Shown here piece after piece: positions 3,705 to 35,193 of a stretch of DNA of 37,001 bases (positions are counted from its first letter, which is position 1; every line of letters starts with the position of its first letter). Below the pieces are notes generated by a model that worked only from the letters and a program-made list of their open reading frames with translations, did no database searches and was not told where the DNA came from. The position numbers and the translations under genes are program-made. Origin of the DNA: an uncultured bacterium (GTDB lineage Bacteria; Verrucomicrobiota; Lentisphaeria; Victivallales; UBA1829); assembly GCA_949290385.1 (NCBI GenBank), contig CASERY010000083.1:1-37001 (forward strand). The letters run 5' to 3'.

Positions 3705-5924
3705 TTACTCTTCTATGGCAGTCAGTATGCAGAACAAACCGCTTCCATCCCGGTTCTACAGATCCTGCAGGACAAAACCAGCATTCATCAAGGTATCCCC
3801 GTAAAGCCTGTATTCCCTGTTTTTGTCCAGAACCTGAATTCTGTAGCGAAGTTTCGGATCCAATCCCTGAAGTCTCACACGGAGAGCCGGCATATGAACA
3901 TTCATGCGTCTGAGTACTGCTATAAGTGCAGCCTTTCTGCGGTCTTTTGAAACAAGCCCCCAGGCACACAGTCTCTCCTCTCCATTGAAAACATCACTAA
4001 GACGGTAGAAAGTTCCCTCTGTCACCAGATCATGATACTGATGATGTTGCTCCACCTGAGAACGGACAAAATCGCGTTCTTCCTCATTCAGTTTTGTCAA
4101 ATCCAGCTCGTAGCCTCCTGTTCCGCAGAATGCCACATAGCCCCGGGTCTCAAACGGAGTAGTCCTGCCAGTTATATGATTCGGACACACAGAGACATGC
4201 GCCCCCATGGAACTGCATGGGTAGAACAGGGAAGTTCCTCCCTGAATTGCAAGACGTTCAATGGCATCCGTGTCATCACTGCACCATATCTGGGGACAGT
4301 AATAAAGAATGCCCGCATCAAAACGCCCTCCCCCTCCGGAACAGCCTTCAATCAGCAGATTCGGGAATTCCCTGAGAAGCATTTCATGAAGCCGATAGAC
4401 CCCCAGCACATATCGGTGTGCAGTCTCCCCCTGCTGGTCTGCCGGAAGTGCAGGAGAATAGACTTCTGTCAGATTCCTGTTCATATCCCATTTCACATAT
4501 TCAATATTTGCAGAGTGCAGGATACTGGAGATCATGCGGAACACCTCTTCCACGACTTCCTCACGGGACATATCCAGCACCATCTGATTTCTGCCAAGGG
4601 TGCGGCGGCGGCCAGGAATCTGAATAGCCCAGTCCGGATGCGCCCGGAACAATTCACTTTCCTCTGAAACCATTTCAGGTTCAAACCACAATCCGAATTT
4701 CAATCCTGCCTGATTGATTTTCCGTACCAGATCCGGCAGATCCCCCAGTTTCTCACGGTTCACAAACCAGTCCCCGAGGCTGGTTCTGTCATTATTGCGC
4801 TTTCCAAACCAGCCGTCATCCAGGACAAGCATTTCGATGCCGAGTTCCTAGGCAGTTTCTGCAATGGAAAGAATCTTTTTATCGTCAAAATCAAAATAGG
4901 TGGCTTCCCAGTTGTTGATCAGAATCGGACGCTTTTTCAAAGCCCAGGTCTGCCGGATTAAATGATTCCGCAGAAAATCATGAAAGTTTCTGCTCATGCC
5001 GGAAAAACCTGTCCCGCTGCATGTCATGAAAACTTCCGGAGTCTGAAAGGAATCCCCGGCTTTCAGCTTCCACTCAAAAAAGTCTGGATGAATCCCCAGC
5101 AGCACGCGCGTATTTCCATACTGATCCACTTCCGCCATGCACTCATGGTTTCCGCTGTATGCCAGCATAAAACCATAAACAAGTCCCTGCTTTTCACCCG
5201 CATCCGGTTCCGCAAGCGCAAGCGCAGGACTGTTGCAATGGCCGGAGCTGCCCCGGACACTGCGAATTCCCTGCAGTCCCTTCCTCAATCTGCACCGTTC
5301 CGGAGAACGTTCCCGTGCCCAGGACCCGTTCAGTGTAATTAAGTCAAAGTTGTGTCCTTCCAAGTCCAGCTGCGCACTCATCGCCCGTTCCAGGTACAGA
5401 GTCTCCTGCGTGCGATTCAAAACCTTTACAGAACGCACAATCACATCGTGCTCCGGAAACACAGAATAAACCACAGTATAATAAAAATCCATTGCCGGAT
5501 CCTTCAAAGTAAGTTCCAGCGCTTCAATTTCTTCTTCATCATGTCCGGCAAAACTGGAAGGAAGCCCCGGCAGGACTTTCTTTCCCTGGACTATTTGATG
5601 GGAATGATAATAAACATCCGCTGCAACGGCTCCGCACGGAGTTTTCACCTGAACGGATCCTGATCTGAAATCTCCAGTATTGAATCCGGAAAATTCCTGC
5701 ATAATCCAGTCTGGAGAATAAGGCAGGTCTGAATCTGCCGGCATGGGAGAAATCGAGGCCGGCTGGAAGAGTGCCAGCTGAGAAAGAATTTCATCCGTAT
5801 CGGAGATGGACTTTCCATAATAAAGATGGTAAACCCGATGATTAGAAGCGGCTATAAAAATATAGTCTGTATTCCTGGTGGAAAGTTTGAACAGGCCTTT
5901 TTCCGGATAAAAATGAATCGCCAT
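3705..5924 (-). CDS. GH36 alpha-galactosidase, with two in-frame TAG codons
   Basis: Hydrolyses terminal alpha-1,6-galactose from raffinose-type sugars. It has no signal peptide, so it is cytoplasmic. Read with TAG as sense it has 739 aa, the usual GH36 length. TAG is codon 359 (4848-4850, context IAETA-TAG-ELGIE) and codon 723 (3756-3758, context LQDL-TAG-NRDGSG). The first falls just before the conserved LVLDDGWFGKR. The nucleophile is Asp480 in YVKWDMNR and the acid/base Asp550 in CSDDTDA, spaced 70 residues apart as in characterised bacterial GH36 enzymes. The part after the second TAG (SGLFCILTAIEE) matches the usual GDFQSRLF-like tail. The true stop is TAA at 3705-3707. Under the standard code the gene would split into 358- and 358-aa pieces, the first lacking all catalytic residues. 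No sugar transporter is adjacent. Confidence 0.95.
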
Positions 5925-11835: not shown

Positions 11836-12324
11836 TTATTCTCCTGGGAACGCCGTCTTCCGGCCGGCTTTTGCTTCTGCATCCAGCTTGGCAATCACAT
11901 CGGTTTTAGGGGCATCGCCCCAGAGTTCTTCCAGTTGATAACGAGCCCGGGCATCTTCAGTCAGGACATGAACCATAACTGTACCGAAATCCACAATCAT
12001 CCAGTGGCTCTGCGGAGTACCGTCGCAAACCAGAGGACGGATCCCCAGACGGTTTCTACATTCTCTCTGGATGTGTTCAGCAATTGCTCCAATATGAGGT
12101 TCGGAAAGGCCCGTGCAGATAATGTACTGGTCTGCCAGAGCCGTATCCATGCCTGTCATATCCAGACGCACGATATTTTCCGCTTTTCTAGCGTATGCCA
12201 CCTTTTCACAGAGTTCCGCCACTTCCATTGCAGTGACTTTCTTTCCTTCTGCCGAAGCAGACGATGCGGCAAGATTCTGTTCTTTCTGATAATCCATGGT
12301 TTTGTTTTTCTCCATATCGTTCAT
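11836..12324 (-). CDS. rsfS: Ribosomal silencing factor RsfS (Iojap)
   Basis: Binds ribosomal protein L14 and blocks subunit joining when nutrients are scarce. It has 162 aa. The conserved domain is the C-terminal two thirds, with YIICTGLSEPHIGAIAEHIQ, SHWMIVDFGTVMVHVLTE and RARYQLEELWGDA. The first 40 residues are polar and variable. The ATG at 12324 lies two bases after the true nadD stop (TGA, 12327-12329), so translation is probably coupled; nadD-rsfS is a common bacterial gene pair. This tight spacing appears only if nadD reads through its TAG. It ends in TAA. Confidence 0.94.
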   Translation of the reverse strand: MNDMEKNKTMDYQKEQNLAASSASAEGKKVTAMEVAELCEKVAYARKAENIVRLDMTGMDTALADQYIICTGLSEPHIGAIAEHIQRECRNRLGIRPLVCDGTPQSHWMIVDFGTVMVHVLTEDARARYQLEELWGDAPKTDVIAKLDAEAKAGRKTAFPGE

Positions 12325-12326
12325 TT

Positions 12327-12947
12327 TCAATTATTCTTCTGATAAAGCCCCAGACGGTCAATCAAGGCCAGTACGCCAGGATGCAGACTTTCTTTCAGGA
12401 ACTGTCTGTCTCCGGAGGCCACGGCTGCCCGTATCTAGGTTGAAGAAACCGGCGAATCCGGCAGGCCGTGCATTACACCGGACAGGAGTTTGTCTGTCTC
12501 CTGCTCTGTCCAATGAAGCAGAAGTTCCTCTCTGCTGATCTTCTCGGATGTGCGCGGATAGACAAGAAGGGAATAATTATCAGCCAGCTCCCGGGCACGG
12601 TACCACGTATGCAGCTGGCGCAGACTGTCAGACCCGATCAGAAGGAACAGTTCATCCTCCGGATAAATCTCTGAAAGTTCATTCAAAGTATCTATGGTAT
12701 AAGATTTACCCGGCCGGAAGCGTTCCAAATCCGAAACAATAAAGGAAGGATTGCCCTCTGTTGCTGTTTCCAGCATTTTCTTCCGCACCTCATACGGAGT
12801 AATCCGCTGTTTCGTCTTATGAGGCGGACAGGGAGCCGGAATAAACAGAACCCAATCAGCTCTTCCGCTGTCAAGAACGCTTTGGGCAATCTGCAGATGA
12901 ACTGCATGGACCGGATCAAATGTTCCACCGAAAAGCGCAATTTTCAT
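12327..12947 (-). CDS. nadD: Nicotinate-nucleotide adenylyltransferase, with one in-frame TAG
   Basis: Joins nicotinate mononucleotide and ATP to form deamido-NAD. It has 206 aa when TAG is read as sense. The N-terminus FGGTFDPVHAVHLQIAQ is the nucleotidyltransferase signature. PAPCPPHK and LLIGSDSLRQLHTW follow. TAG is codon 171 (12435-12437), inside the conserved SSTxIR motif that grips ATP: VSST-TAG-IRAAVASG. After it comes a normal NadD tail ending LIDRLGLYQKNN, then TGA. Stopping at TAG would remove the end of this motif and the last 36 residues. The start is ATG with AAGGAA upstream. Confidence 0.95.
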
Positions 12948-15603: not shown

Positions 15604-18600
15604 ATGAGCCTGACGATTTATTCACATTACAGTCTTGATTTTCTAGGAGATCTCTACTGCCGGAAAATCTATCGGGCAAACCACAGCTCTTTTCCCCGCA
15701 GGGAAACGGCAGCCGTCCAGTCCAAAGGCATGGAGGCATGGCTTAAACAGAAAATAGCTTCCTGTACGCCTATTGCAGCCAGTCTGTCTTTTCCCTTCAT
15801 CAACTCAGTGGTCAACGAAACGCTTTCTCTGGCATTTCCGGAACCTCCCCGACAACCTGATGAATCGGTATATACGCTTTTTCCATCTTCATCCGGCTTC
15901 AGGAAAGACCGAAATTTTCTTTCCCGGGAAACCCTCACCTGGAAGATTTTCGGTATTCTGCTCAAAAACGGACTGGAACAGTATCCGTCCTTTCACAGGT
16001 ACGCCTGTAATTCAGGGGGAAAACGTGAACTGAAAATCTTTCAGCTTTCGGAAAAACTTGCTTCCGTATTTGATCTTTATCAAATCTACTGCCCGGAACT
16101 TCTCCTTGCATGGACTGGACTGGATACCGGGAATTCCTCCAGTCCGGTAATGGATGCCGGCCTTCCATAGGATCTTCTTGAGCAGGAGAAAAAACTTTAT
16201 CAGACTGTAACAGCAGATCATCCAAATCGAGAGTACTTCATCTGGCGTTTTTTTCAAAACGACCTTCCGGATGCAGACACTTTCAGGAAAAAAATTCAGG
16301 CACGCTTCCCTCATCTAACATTTTTTGGATTTTCCTCGCTCCCGCGGATCTATTATCAGTTTCTCTGCAAACTTGCGGAATTCTGCGATATGGCCTTATT
16401 CCATGTCAATCCCGCCATTGCCTACTGGGGAGACCAGTACAGCCGGAAAAAACTTCTGAAGACCATGGAACACTGGAACCAATCCTCTGAAATGCCTCCG
16501 GATACAATGGATTTTCTTCATTATGGATCCCCGCTTCTTCAGTCATTCTGCCAGCAGGGAAGAGTGTTTCTTGAAGACATCCTCAGATCCTTCGATACAG
16601 ATGCTCCTGTGCTGGAATCTCCGGAAGCCCCTTTCTTCCTTGAGGATAAAGGCCCGGAGGAAAAAACAATTCTTCAGCGTCTTCAGGCAGATCTCCGTCT
16701 GGTACGACCAACTGCAGCCTTTCCAGTAGGTCCGGAGGAAGCCCGTAAGGATTGCTCTCTTGAGATTCACAGCTGTTTCAGTCCCATGCGGGAAATTGAG
16801 ATGCTTCATGACAGAATCCTTCATGCGCTTTCCAATCCGGAGATTCAGCCACGGGATATTCTTGTAACGGCACCGGATATCAACCGGTATGTTCCTTATA
16901 TTGACGCAGTATTCAGCGCTGATACGGTTCTCCGGGGACTCTACACCATCTAGGACAGAAATCTTACAGCGTCCAGTCCAGTGGTCAATACCCTGCTGAA
17001 AACCCTGGAGCTCTGCCGTGGACGCATGGATGTTCCATCCGTTTTTGAAATTCTTGAAAATGAGTTTGTCCAGAAGAAATTTGGGCTCTGGCAGCAGGAT
17101 CTGTCCAAACTCAAGCTCTGGATGGATCAGGCAATGATCCGCTGGGGCGTTGATGGAAAACATCACCAGCAGTTCACTGGAGTCTGTTTTGACGATTACT
17201 CCTGGAATTCCGGACTCCGCAGGCTGCTCCTGGGTTATGCCATGTTTGAACCGGACTCTCCAGATGGTTTTGAATCCGAAAAAATCATTCCCGCAGATTT
17301 TGCCGAGGATTCGGAAACCCTTCTTCTGGATCGATTCCTTTCTTTTATAAAAATTCTATTTCAAACCTGGCAAAGTTTGAAAGACAGCAAATCTCCTTCT
17401 GACTGGGAACAGTTTCTGCAGGATTTGCTGAACAAGCTCTTTTTTCAGACACGGGAAATTCATGAAGAACTAGTTCAGATCCGCGAAATTCTTTTCAATT
17501 TCCGTCTTCACGCGGAAGAAGAAGGCATTTCAAATCCACTGGACGCAGGAACGGTCCTGGATATGCTTTCTGAACAGTTTGAACTCACTGCATCGGAAAG
17601 TGCTTTTCTCCGGGAAAAAATCACTTTCTGCTCTCTGGTCCCCCTCCGGACAATTCCCAGAAAAGTCATTGCCGTAATGGGGCTCAATGAACAAGATTTT
17701 CCAAGACGGGATCACGAATTATTATTCAATCTTCTTTCCAGCGACCTGAAAAAGCGCTATTGTTCCAAATCCATGCAGGACCGCTATCTTTTCCTGGAAA
17801 CAATCCTTTCCGCTGAAAAGCAGCTGATTCTCTCCTATACAGGTCAGGATGTCAAATCCAGAGAAACCAAACCTCCTGCAGTGCCTCTTCAAGAACTTAT
17901 TTCATATGTTTCTGATCATTATTCCGTCCAGGTTATCCAGGAGAAACTCCAGGCTTTCAGTCCGGACTACTTCTCCGGCGAAAATCCTGCACTTTATTCC
18001 TATTCTGCTGAAAATTTCCATGCAGCCCAAATGCTGGAGCGCTCCCGCAGTCAAGCCTTTTCTTCAATGCCACCAGTATCCGGCAGGGAAACAGCACGTC
18101 TTTCCCAGGAAGTTCTTCAGATTTTGAAAAACGGAATCAAGGACCCGGAAAATATAGAAACACCCCAGGTCCTTTCGGCAAATCTTATTGAATCCATTCC
18201 GAATTCAAACGGAACTGTAGAACTTCAGGATTTCTGTCATTTTTTCCAGAATGCTTCTGCAATCTATCTGGAAACAGCCGCAGGCATTGTCTGCCCTTCC
18301 CTCAGTGCATCTGAGGAAGACGATACAGAACCCTTCGCTCCTGACCCGTTGGAATCCTACGACCTCTACCGGAAAATGACGGAATTCACTGCTGTTGGAT
18401 TCCCATTGGATATCCAGCAGAATTTCCTCGAAAAAACCTTAATTCATCTGCTGGGAGAAAACAGCTCTTCCGTTTTCTCAAAAATCTATGAAAACATCCA
18501 GTTCCTTTTCATGAATGCCCCTGAAGCCCGGCAGCTGTTTAAGAAAACAAGCAGGAAAAAAGCAGCATCTTTCTTCAGCACCACAGCCCATCGTTCCCTG

Positions 18601-19179
18601 CATGGCAATATCCCATTTCTGCTTGAAAAAGCCCCCTCCGGCTCCTCCACGGATAATACATTGACAGCTTATCTCCCCGTATATTCAGACTGGAAAGGCA
18701 AATATGCCTTCCGTCTTCTGGCACACATGAGTCTGGCTTCTGCCGGTCTGGGAATTCCATGCGCGGGAAAAGTCCTTCTCTTTAAAAAGCGAGAAATAAA
18801 GACATTTCACTCGATCTCGCCGGAGGATGCTTCCTTGTGGCTCAACCACATGCTTCTGATTTACAGTGCAGGTCATATTCTTCCTCTGCCAATATTTGAA
18901 AAAACCTCCTGGAACGCAGCCTGTCAGACAGCCTCAGGGAAACAGGACAACAACAAACTTTTAGAGATCTTTCTGGAAGAAGACTGCGCACCAGGGAAAA
19001 ACCGTGCAGATACACAGCCAATCCGTCTTCTCTATCCGGACCCGGATATCTTTAAATTGTACCCCGATCAGATGGAAGGTCTCCGTGTTCTTGCGGAACA
19101 TATTTATCTGCCGCTCCTCTCCAGAGCAGAGAAAAAGCCGCGGTCCAGAAGCTCTAAAACGGAAATACGGGAGTACTGA
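15604..19179 (+). CDS. recC: Exodeoxyribonuclease V gamma subunit RecC, with two in-frame TAG codons
   Basis: Structural and Chi-recognition subunit of RecBCD, which unwinds and trims double-strand DNA ends and loads RecA. Read with TAG as sense it has 1191 aa, close to E. coli RecC (1122). The N-terminus matches RecC: LTIYSHYSLDFLGDLYC, then VQSKGMEAWLKQKIA. TAG is codon 189 (16168-16170, DAGLP-TAG-DLLEQ), in the region where E. coli has WQAPLW, and codon 450 (16951-16953, LYTI-TAG-DRNL), where E. coli has YAISDR. LTFFGFSSLPRIYYQFL and FHVNPAIAYWGDQ after the first TAG, and GLNEQDFPRRD after the second, are RecC landmarks. It ends in TGA, directly abutting the recB ATG. With TAG as stop this would be three fragments. 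Confidence 0.94.
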
Positions 19180-22100
19180 ATGATGAATACATCCTGGACT
19201 TCCTTTGATTCCCTGCATTCAGAATTCTCCGGAACGACCCTGGTGGAAGCAGCAGCCGGCACCGGGAAAACTTATAACATCCAGAATCTGGCAGCCCGCG
19301 CTGTTATGGAAGGTTATGACTTTCCGTCTCTGCTGATTGTCACCTATACGGAAGCGGCAGCCGATGAACTCAAGAAACGCTGTTTTTCCATTTTAAAAGG
19401 GTGTTACCTCCTTCTGGACCGGCATCTTCCGGAAGATGCCCCGGTTTATGAGCAGTGCAAAGCCATTGTGGAAACCGAACACATTGAACGGAAAATTCCG
19501 ACTGAACTCCTGAAATATCGCCTTCACGGGGCACTTCTTACCTTGGACAGTGCTTCTATTTTTACCATCCACGGATTTTGCATGAGAGTTCTTTCAGACT
19601 GCGCCTTTGAGTCCGGGAATCTTTTCAGAACCCGTCTTGAAGCCAATTCCGCAGTCATTCTTTCCCGTCTGAGCGATGACTATTACCGGCATGTATTTTA
19701 CTCGGATGCCATCAGTGATACGGTCAAATCCATCCTCCGGACACTCTACGGCATCACAAACCTCACTCTGTATGAACGAATCCGGGGACCGGTTTCAGAA
19801 TCCTATACTCCTGTCCAGCCATTGCAGAACAAGACTGAAAAACAGGAACACCCGTATGGGGAAAACCTGTTTAGCCCGGAAGATACCCTTGCTCTTGAAA
19901 GTCTTATAGATGAAATCCATTCCTTTTCAAGAAATCAGACTTCTGAGGAGCTTCTCAACAAAATCCAGTTGTACGGCAAAGCCATACTCCGGGATGCAGT
20001 TCAGGATTTTCGGACAGCCATTCAGCAATGCGAAAAGCATTCCCGGTCCGGCCGCAGCCTGCTGCTGAACAGTTTTCTTGTCCTCGCAGAGAAAACCGCC
20101 GATCTTCGGAATTTTACCAAGGCCGCTTTGTCCAGTCATCCGGACCTTGAGCAGGAGTTTCTCCTGATACACCAGTACCGGCAGAAGATCCTTGAGGTTA
20201 CAGATCGTCTTTATTACCATTTTCTTTGCCGGGGAATTCATGAAGTCCGCAGTGCCTATGAAAAACTCAAGGAAGAAGAAAATTTTCTGACTTTTGACGA
20301 CCTTCTCCTGAAAGTGCGTGAAATTCTCCGGAGTTCCGGCTCCGAACGTCTTTTGACAGTCTTGAGACAGCGCTACCGCATGGCCATCATCGATGAATTT
20401 CAGGACACAGATCCATGCCAGTATGAAATCTTCCATAAGATTTTTGCCGAAGGCGGCCTGCCGGTCTTTTTAATCGGCGATCCGCGACAGGCTATCTACT
20501 CCTTCCGGGGAGCTGACATCGCCACTTATACGAAAGCCGCCCGCGATGTGGAAATGTGCAGACCACGTCAGACTCTGTCCGTCAACTATCGGAGCGCAGA
20601 TGTCATGATTCAGGCAGTCAACACGCTCTTCCGTCTCCCGCAATATGCCTGCACTCCGGATGGGGAAATCCATTCCTGGACGCCCTTCATGGATCCGTAG
20701 ATTCATTTTGAAGCAGTCAAAACCCCTTCAGACGAAGATCCTTCCCGGGCGAAACCCGGCCTCCTCCATGAAGGCAAGGAAGACTCCAGCCCCTTTCAGA
20801 TACTGTTTTCCCCCGACATGAATCAGGAACAAATTCTTCAGGCATGTGCCGCAGAAATACAAAAGATGCTGGCAACTCCTGACCTGTACCAGATTCCACA
20901 AGTCAATCCGGATCAGACTGTAAGCTGCAGGCCGGTTCAGCCGGGAGACATTGCCGTGCTTGCCTATCAGAAACGCAATGCTGCTTCAGTGCGAAAAATT
21001 CTTGCTTCCATGAACATCGCATCTGTCTTTGTCAAGGGCCGCAATATCTACGCCTCCAGTGATGCCTGGGAACTCTATCTGGTTTTAAAAGCAGTCCTGC
21101 AGCCAAATTCCAGAGAACTGGTTATGAATGCGCTTGCAACTCCTGTTTGCGGAGTCCCTATAGACCGGCTGGTCCAGGCAAACGAAGACCCGCAGTCCGG
21201 AGAGCTTTTCATCGCAGACATGATGGAAGTTTTTTTAACTTTGAATCAGCTGTGGAAAAAAAGCTTTCTCCAGATGTTTCAGGAACTCTTCCGGCATTTT
21301 CACGTACGGGAACGGTATCCGGCTCTCCCGGATGGTGAAAGAAAACTGACCAACCTTCTCCAGCTTCAGGATCTGCTCTATCAGGAAATTCTCACGGACA
21401 AATGTTCTCCGGAGACAGTCGTATCCAAACTTGCCAGACGCATTCAAAAACAGGATCAACTCCAGGGGCCACCCTTTTCACACTCTCGCCCGGCAGCAGA
21501 TGAAAACAGTGAACAAACCGAAGAACAGCTCGAAACGGACCGCAACGCTGTCCAGCTCATGACCATTCATTCCAGCAAAGGCCTTGAATTTCCCATTGTT
21601 CTGCTCCCGGATTTTTACTCAAAGACTATCCGGAAATTATTTTCAAACGCTGCCGCAGACAGGACTCCCTATAAAATTCACATGCCTGACGGTTCTGCCG
21701 CTTTTGATCTTCTCTGTCAAAAGGAAAATCTCATCCCTGCGGCTTCAGAAAGCCTTCAGGAAGACCTTCGCCTGGCTTATGTGGCTTTCACCCGGGCAAA
21801 GTATAAAACGCTGCTGTTCCGGGGGAAAAATGACACCCCCTCCTGTCTGGATTGGCTTTTCGTCATGAAGCATCTGGATCCCCTCCAGTTTCCATCTCTT
21901 GCAAATCCCGAATATGCGGCTCAATGCGTCCAGCTGCTTCTGAGCAAAGGCGGAACTTTTGAAGAAGCTTATCTGAATCATCCTTTCTGCCGGAAACTGG
22001 ATCCGGATTTTGTCCTGCAAAAACTTCCTTCTTGTGAAAAGGAACGGCCTCTCACACTGCCGGAACTGCATCTCTTCATCGACCGCAACTGGCAAATGGC

Positions 22101-23028
22101 AAGCTATACAACACTCACGCCGGCAAATTTCGGTACATCCAATGCCCCGGATTCTGAGACATTCAGTCTGGATTATGATGACGACGATGAAATCTTTGCT
22201 TCAGATGAAAATAGCAATCCGACCATCTCATCCGGATCGGACAGCATTTTCACAATTCCCGGAGGAGCCATTCTTGGAAATGCGTGGCATAAAATTCTCC
22301 AGGAACTGGACTACCAGGAAAATCCCGGAACCATTCAGGAAACCGTTGAACGGCAAATGCGTCTTTTCGGGCTTGTCAGGGATCAGGACTTAAAACTCCG
22401 GAACAACCGCTGTACTTTGACATCCGACATGCTACAAAAACTCTTTCTTCTTCCATTCCACGGTCAGAATACAGAATCTTTCAGACTCTGCGATATTCCT
22501 AAAAATCAAAGGATTCCGGAATTTGAATTCACTTTTTCCCTGAAACGCGGCTTTACCGGAAAGGACATTCAAAAAATCCTTGCCCCATGGATCCAGACTC
22601 GCTTTCATCTCTCGCCGGAATCCTGGCCGGACTGGAACCGGGAAATATCCGGTGGATTCCTCACCGGATTCATTGATCTGTTTTTCTGCTGGAACGGAAA
22701 ATTCTATCTTCTTGACTGGAAATCCAACCGTCTTGGCGGGAATGCAAAATCATTCAATGCCCAGTCCATCTGTCAGGAAATGATCCGCCACTTTTACTTC
22801 ATCCAGTATTTTCTTTATCTCACAGCAGCAGTCAAGTATCTGCGCTTTCTCAACAACGGGAAAATGTCCCGGGAGATTTATCAGGAAAAAATAGGCGGCA
22901 TTTTCTACGTATTTCTCCGTGGCGCAGTTCTGGAAGATCCGGAACGAGCTCTTTTTTTCGATCTGCCGCCCTACGAAACAGTGGAAGCCCTTGAACAGCT
23001 GTTCACACCGGAAGGACTTGACTCATGA
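19180..23028 (+). CDS. recB: Exodeoxyribonuclease V beta subunit RecB, with one in-frame TAG
   Basis: 3'-5' helicase and nuclease subunit of RecBCD. It has 1282 aa with TAG as sense. Walker A is AAAGTGKT (about 25-32); VTYTEAAADELKKR follows; Walker B is IIDEFQDTD near 405; then LIGDPRQAIYSFRGAD. TAG is codon 507 (20698-20700, FMDP-TAG-IHFEAVK), aligning with E. coli FKEIPFIPVK. Beyond it come the 2B/2A helicase motifs MTIHSSKGLEF (near 793) and AYVAFTRAK, then the nuclease domain with GNAWHKILQEL and GFIDLFF...LLDWKSN (about 1161-1182), the catalytic Asp/Lys set. Helicase and nuclease are therefore intact only if TAG is translated. It ends in TGA in an ATGA overlap with recD. Confidence 0.96.
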
Positions 23029-33959: not shown

Positions 33960-35193
33960 CAGACCTGAGGCAGACAGCAATACCGCAGAGCAGAAAAATC
34001 CACTGACATCCTCTCTCTGCGGCGACCGGGACAGAGTTATTATTCAGAATGGCATTTACCTGGATCATGCGGCGGCCATGCCGCCTGATCCGGCGGTGCT
34101 TGCCCGGATTGCAGAATTATTTCAAACAGTCTATGCCAATCAGGAGTCTCCTGGCTTTCACGGAAGCCAGGCGCTGCATATACAGAAAAAAGCGGAACAG
34201 CTTTTAAAATGTGCTCTTTCGGAAAACTGTAATTCGGAATGCATGGTTCTCTGGTGCAGTTCCGGAACAGAAGCCGTTCAGGCCTCCATGAAACTTATTC
34301 AAAAGGTCTATCCTTCCGGAGGAGTGATTTTATTCAGTGAAGGAGAGCATGCGTCTGTACGGGCGGCTCTAAAAGAAATGCCGGGTTCTTACCAGTGTCT
34401 TCCGCTGAAACTTGCATCCGAAGGCACGTTGGATCTGGATGATCTTGAACAAAAACTCAAAAAGTTCAATGTGATTGCCTGCGCCGTACATTTTGTTCAG
34501 TCTGAAACTGGAAAAATTCAAGATTTAACCGCAGTCCGCAACCTTCTGAAAAAACATTCATCCAAAACCCTGTTCTTCACGGATGCCATTCAGGGTATTG
34601 GAAAAATTCCCCTGCCCTGGGATCAGGCAAAACCGGATATTCTGACGATTTCCGGTCAAAAATTTGGACTTCCTTCCGGAGCGGCACTTGTCTGTTCCAA
34701 CACATTGCGCAAAGATCTTGTTTCACTCAGAAATACGTTTCATCTGGTTGGCCGTCTTCCAGTGCCTTTTGCCATGGCTCTTGCGGAACGCCTGGAATAC
34801 CTGCAGCGGAATCTGAATGAAAATAGAAAGAAGGCATCTGAAATAAAGAATTTTCTTCTCCAGGAACTGCAGGAGAACTTATTCGGATATTTTCAGGAGA
34901 CCATCCCGTCTTCTGATGCCAGCGACTATATTTGTCATCTGCTGCTCAAGTCTTCTTCTGTAACTTATCAGGGAGCCATTGTTGTCCGTGCGCTTTCTGC
35001 CAGAGGCATTTCCGTATCCTCCGGCAGTGCCTGTGATGCTGAAACCAAAACGCCTTCTGCAGTTCTCAGGGCAATGGGGATTCCCATCAAGGATGCTTAT
35101 TCAGCCTTGCGCATATCCCTGGGATTCCATACAACAAAGTAGGAAATTCGCCAGTTTGTATGGGAACTGAAGAAAACTCTGAGTGAATATTGA
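33952..35193 (+). CDS. Cysteine desulfurase (NifS/IscS type), with one in-frame TAG
   Basis: PLP enzyme that takes sulfur from cysteine for iron-sulfur clusters and thio-modification. It has 413 aa with TAG as sense. About 33 extra residues precede the usual start (IYLDHAAAMP). PLP contacts are SEGEHAS (His133), FFTDAIQGIGK (Asp211, Gln214) and the Schiff-base Lys237 in ISGQKFG. The active Cys361 is in SSGSACD. TAG is codon 397 (35140-35142), inside the family motif where homologs read TTxEEI: HTTK-TAG-EIRQFVW. The helix then continues to SEY and TGA at 35191. Stopping at TAG would cut the last 17 residues of the family fold. A NifU-like gene follows 64 bases later. Confidence 0.94.

Follow-up and report, generated by a model that had tools for sequence, protein, structure and literature searches.

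In-frame TAG codons in nadD and many other genes of a Lentisphaeria bacterium lacking a release factor 1 gene point to UAG as a sense codon, most likely for alanine

We conclude, with near certainty, that UAG is a sense codon in an uncultured gut bacterium of the Lentisphaeria (2.7 Mb chromosome, 46% GC, assembly 78% complete) in which the gene for release factor 1 (RF1, prfA) has been deleted. The explanation we favor is a changed genetic code, with UAG read as sense everywhere, the RF1 gene lost, and the codon most likely translated as alanine by a tRNA-Ala with a CUA anticodon; taken as a whole, this explanation is probable, although the residue is less firmly established than the sense reading. 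The nearest named matches to the organism were Lentisphaeria and Victivallales MAGs, two of the three from sheep gut; all were relatives, and the organism was not among them.

Within the window (the whole 37,001-nucleotide stretch of DNA analyzed), nadD lies on the reverse strand at positions 12327–12947 and is complete if TAG is sense, comprising 206 codons and ending in TAA (12327–12329). Codon 171 is an in-frame TAG (12435–12437) that takes the variable position of the VSST-x-IR stretch (motif SSTxIR), and it is followed by 35 sense codons, such that the end of the gene reads ...LPDSPVSST-TAG-IRAAVASGDRQFLKESLHPGVLALIDRLGLYQKNN-TAA. The terminal TAA stands two bases ahead of the likely ATG (12324) of rsfS, which is directly downstream on the same strand (11836–12324; RsfS domain, 88.8 bits) and has no TAG inside. 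A sequence-only reading had described a TAG within this nucleotide-binding motif and an otherwise normal NadD tail running up to rsfS, and both descriptions hold. The read-through product is an equivalog match to TIGR00482 (148.9 bits, cut-off 112.45; 138.4 bits for the truncated form), and NadD of the nearest relatives aligns over the whole length and across the TAG site (residues 1–204, 45%–52% identity). At the TAG column, relatives most commonly have Glu, followed by Ala, Gln, and Ser. None of the 58 NadD matches obtained from 60 relatives contained an internal stop, and no TAG was present in nadD of other genera of the same family.

The same reading had held that read-through of this TAG is probably required, given that NadD is normally essential, a claim that would fail if a second complete nadD accompanied decay of the window copy. 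Our results support it. No second nadD was detected in the assembled part of the genome using a CTP_transf_like search, in which the only other matches were a CoaD-like protein (L001) and an RfaE-type-like protein (L003), as judged from sequence, and the window copy shows no decay. The nadD TAG is far beyond what chance would give, because no relative's NadD has an internal stop and more than 100 further in-frame TAGs occur in 423 kb of the genome. The cause is genome-wide: the nadD TAG is part of a general change, and is neither an event specific to NadD nor the work of a suppressor against a functioning RF1. NadD would be just one among many proteins requiring UAG decoding.

Other genes in the window are split in the same way, and only by TAG, with domains intact on both sides. 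The GH36 alpha-galactosidase gene (3708–5924, reverse strand) has an in-frame TAG at codon 359 (4848–4850), inside a Melibiase domain spanning residues 292–637, where relatives have Ala or Ser. On the forward strand, recC (15604–19179) is interrupted twice, at codon 189 (16168–16170; Exonuc_V_gamma spans residues 3–364) and codon 450 (16951–16953; TIGR01450 spans residues 3–836), and recB (19180–23028) once, at codon 507 (20698–20700; TIGR00609 spans residues 10–1275). Two further TAGs each lie 16 codons ahead of the next stop: one in the same GH36 alpha-galactosidase gene (3756–3758, reverse strand), the other in a NifS-type aminotransferase gene (codon 400; 35140–35142, forward strand). Both may once have been terminators and now be translated into short C-terminal extensions; the latter may instead be an internal codon.

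We assessed TAG usage in a 423-kb sample consisting of the window plus 386 kb of the same genome (L095–L114), which is not the whole genome. With TAG treated as sense, 112 in-frame TAGs were present in 73 of the 258 predicted genes (91,333 codons), a frequency of approximately 1.2 per 1000 codons, and they occurred on all sampled contigs. Following a coding run, the frame remained open and coding-like over the next 40 codons after 26 of 45 TAGs, compared with 1 of 69 TAAs and 1 of 47 TGAs; these other stops do not interrupt genes as TAG does. The corresponding coding-score control in a relative (G008) was unclean, with many frames open and coding-like after any stop. We therefore relied on homology instead, in which no stop was found inside the NadD of relatives and only rare stops in other relatives' matches. 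Genes carrying TAG include rpoC, alaS, trpE, trpC, fucI, feoB, prfB, recBC, and an AcrB-type pump (with six TAGs), and the conserved domains or proteins of rpoC, alaS, trpE, fucI, feoB, the AcrB-type pump, and recBC continue intact beyond the TAG. Standard annotation truncates these TAG-containing genes. In trpC (L102:3134-3976, reverse strand), two TAGs are consecutive (codons 91–92), at positions where relatives have Arg and Glu. The alaS gene (L105:9595-11379, reverse strand) is of the short PRK01584 type, with TAG at codon 358, where relatives mostly have Gln; its product is the enzyme expected to aminoacylate the predicted tRNA.

The second line of evidence comes from the release factors. 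A prfA gene (TIGR00019) scored over the cut-off in 56 of the 61 genomes searched, including every genome that was at least 90% complete, but not in this one, where the best TIGR00019 match was prfB, below the prfA cut-off. In relatives, prfA is flanked by rpmE and an ABC transporter gene (G005 and G002) or directly ahead of the same transporter gene (G008). The orthologous locus was recovered here, with rpmE (L298:889-1092; 96% identical to rpmE of G005) and the ABC transporter ortholog (L298:1495-3300) separated by 403 bp in which no trace of, or similarity to, prfA was found. Because this locus is present without prfA, its absence is not an assembly gap. Release factor 2 (RF2, prfB) remains as the only canonical release factor gene left in this genome, and has the SPF motif, which limits RF2 to UAA and UGA. 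An in-frame TAG is also found in prfB (L034:1411-2505, reverse strand), at codon 42 of the read-through frame (MS-TAG-PDFWDD), so production of RF2 itself needs UAG decoding and, given the TAG in alaS as well, the cell depends on UAG being read. Since prfA is gone and TAG occurs in many conserved genes, UAG is inferred to be sense. A 192-aa PrfH/ArfB-like protein with a GGQ motif (L035:1177-1755, reverse strand) has counterparts among many relatives in the form of similar short matches; it may serve to rescue ribosomes that stall at UAG. A tmRNA is also encoded (L027:867-1224), with the tag ANEEYALAA followed by a stop.

Which amino acid is inserted is less clear. We compared TAG columns with the residues of relatives in four overlapping sets of 25, 43, 42 (using a calibrated classifier), and 52 sites, a few of which are duplicate or doubtful. 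Alanine was the best-fitting residue in all four, with bootstrap support of 93%, 78%, and 93% in the last three, and the log-likelihoods in the 52-site set were +5.8 for Ala, −16.0 for Ser, and −20.5 for Gln. In a variability-matched comparison, Ala made up 33% of relatives' residues at TAG columns, where 43% would be expected for the organism's own Ala columns, 6% for its own Gln columns, and 9% for random columns; none of 5000 random samples reached the observed share. Some TAG columns are strictly Ala (FucI, 6 of 6; L112, 5 of 5), and among PDB homologs the FucI site holds Ala, the TrpE site Ala or Asn. However, the signal for Ala per TAG site was weak (0.19, versus 1.0–3.8 for sense codons). 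Inferred from sequence comparison alone, alanine as the main residue at UAG is thus likely but not settled.

The predicted decoder was not found. No tRNA with a CUA anticodon was detected among 46 tRNA hits in the 78%-complete assembly. RF00005, run at both a strict and a permissive threshold, and a pattern combining anticodon and T-arm returned standard tRNAs only, and the weakest hit falls in the tmRNA. This absence is weak evidence, because the bin is incomplete and also lacks other obligatory tRNAs (Ala-UGC, Ile-GAU, and several for Ser). A scan of viral contigs for CUA tRNAs with an Ala-like acceptor returned six candidates. L329, the one with a possible G3:U70 pair, was dropped, as evidence of TAG recoding is absent from it and ARAGORN predicts no tRNA at this place. 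Recognition by alanyl-tRNA synthetase does not involve the anticodon and rests on identity elements in the acceptor stem, which makes a tRNA-Ala(CUA) the natural prediction. The missing tRNA and the evidence against alanine concern the decoder and the residue, not the status of UAG as sense.

That evidence leaves room for glutamine, alone or together with Lys, Glu, or Tyr, inserted in the absence of RF1 by the standard tRNA-Gln(CUG) or by further near-cognate tRNAs, with no new tRNA required. Such decoding is seen in E. coli without RF1, which reads UAG as Gln and Tyr, and also as Asp and Val (PMC6207430). The tRNA-Gln(CUG) is present in the assembly, where no CUA tRNA was found, and Pfam scores with substituted residues favor Gln over Ala by approximately 11 bits summed over approximately 20 proteins. 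This test, intended as independent, conflicts with the comparison of relatives; the differences are small, with Gln slightly ahead in most proteins. Mixture fits also contain a Gln-like (Gln/Lys-like) minority component of 36%–44%. However, if UAG meant Gln, silent changes from CAG to TAG would be expected to leave Gln as the most frequent residue at TAG columns, and it is not: relatives have Ala at 33%–35% and Gln at only 7%–13%, while the organism's own Gln columns of equal variability have 32% Gln and 6% Ala. A Tyr or Trp signal is also absent. We consider glutamine as the residue rather unlikely on balance.

Truly ambiguous decoding, in which a tRNA-Ala(CUA) competes with near-cognate tRNA-Gln or tRNA-Lys and UAG persists only at sites that tolerate the mixed product, is likewise doubtful, and we rank it just below glutamine. 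It would account for the two-component pattern, as a fit of 64% Ala and 36% Gln was clearly better than Ala alone for the 52 sites, a gain of 15.8 that no control codon approached (at most 2.8). It would also suit the variability of TAG columns, which is about twice the average (entropy 1.45 versus 0.71). Yet the same pattern would arise if UAG is Ala and the TAGs are recent, derived from CAG, AAG, and GAG at tolerant sites, and the strictly Ala columns mentioned above speak against a mixture. The simplest reading is alanine, single-base changes in those three codons having produced UAG at tolerant sites; ambiguity is not excluded.

Very little supports UAG as a stop that is locally read through, or the affected genes as pseudogenes or assembly errors: truncated NadD by itself still exceeds the family cut-off, but genes are interrupted by TAG only and not by TAA or TGA, the essential rpoC, alaS, and prfB carry it, domains are intact beyond it, and prfA is deleted at its ancestral place, such that this explanation is already contradicted. 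Pyrrolysine, although encoded by UAG in the archaea and bacteria that use it, can be set aside, given that RF1 is lost, the TAG columns are Ala-rich and not Lys-like, and no PylS scored over the cut-off in this genome or any relative searched (one weak match here, of 20 bits, is at the level that PheS-type proteins give in nearly all genomes).

The alanine reading starts from what the sequence shows, namely that the RF1 gene has been lost from its ancestral position, with rpmE on one side and the ABC transporter gene on the other, and that RF2, a reader of UAA and UGA, remains, so that the assembled genome should hold no factor able to terminate at UAG. The codon would then be decoded by a tRNA, most likely a tRNA-Ala whose anticodon changed to CUA (inferred, as the tRNA was not found), and that anticodon change alone would suffice with a synthetase indifferent to the anticodon. 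UAG occupies mainly tolerant positions, which fits a fairly recent reassignment, perhaps still imperfectly read, and its presence within prfB and alaS would have locked in the new code. This more specific account, comprising RF1 deletion and reassignment to Ala via tRNA-Ala(CUA) at an early stage, mostly at tolerant sites and perhaps with partly ambiguous reading, we hold to be reasonably likely.

The change appears to extend no further than this genus or a closely related group, because all nine other genera of the family searched retain a full-length prfA and, of the 27 genomes of the family in which RpoC was matched, a TAG inside RpoC occurred only in this genome and once in G021. No other species of the same genus was among the genomes compared. 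The G021 match (G021:C16:179-4492), from another genus, has one TAG, which may mark the end of the gene or be erroneous; G021 has prfA. As neighboring genera keep prfA, the steps of the reassignment (loss of RF1, change of tRNA, and spread of the codon) should be datable.

UAG is sense, as Gln (code 15), in crAss-like and other gut phages and in some ciliates. Users of that code are phages of standard-code hosts or eukaryotic nuclei; here, in contrast, the code is that of a bacterial chromosome, and Gln fits the TAG columns worse than Ala. Reassignment of UAG from stop to Ala is known from mitochondria of the green algae Hydrodictyaceae and Neochloris (PMC6821328), in which the UAG-reading release factor has also changed and a tRNA-Ala-like tRNA with a CUA anticodon decodes the codon, as is only predicted for the bacterium. 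The algal systems are mitochondrial with a mutated mtRF1a, whereas the bacterium has a 2.7-Mb chromosome, a deleted RF1, and a tRNA not yet seen. Among bacteria, genome-wide change of a stop to sense is shared with the UGA reassignments (Trp in Mycoplasmatales and insect symbionts, Gly in Absconditabacteria and Gracilibacteria), but those are mostly in clades of very low GC (PMC8629427), and here the codon is UAG, with RF1 loss and 46% GC. In a 2021 survey of more than 250,000 genomes, UGA is the only bacterial stop codon named as reassigned (PMC8629427), and UGA cases are what a 2026 study of inferred bacterial genetic codes describes (PMC13092985). No bacterial UAG reassignment was found in the literature searched, which left subscription papers and preprints largely outside. 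Recoded E. coli without prfA (C321.deltaA type) is likewise RF1-less, relying on RF2 only with UAG free for decoding (PMC6207430), although it was made in the laboratory by replacing UAG stops, and here the state is natural and UAG has spread back into genes. If our reading is correct, a genome of ordinary GC content and normal size can capture UAG, and this bacterium, naturally without RF1 and with UAG as sense, is a wild counterpart of recoded E. coli.
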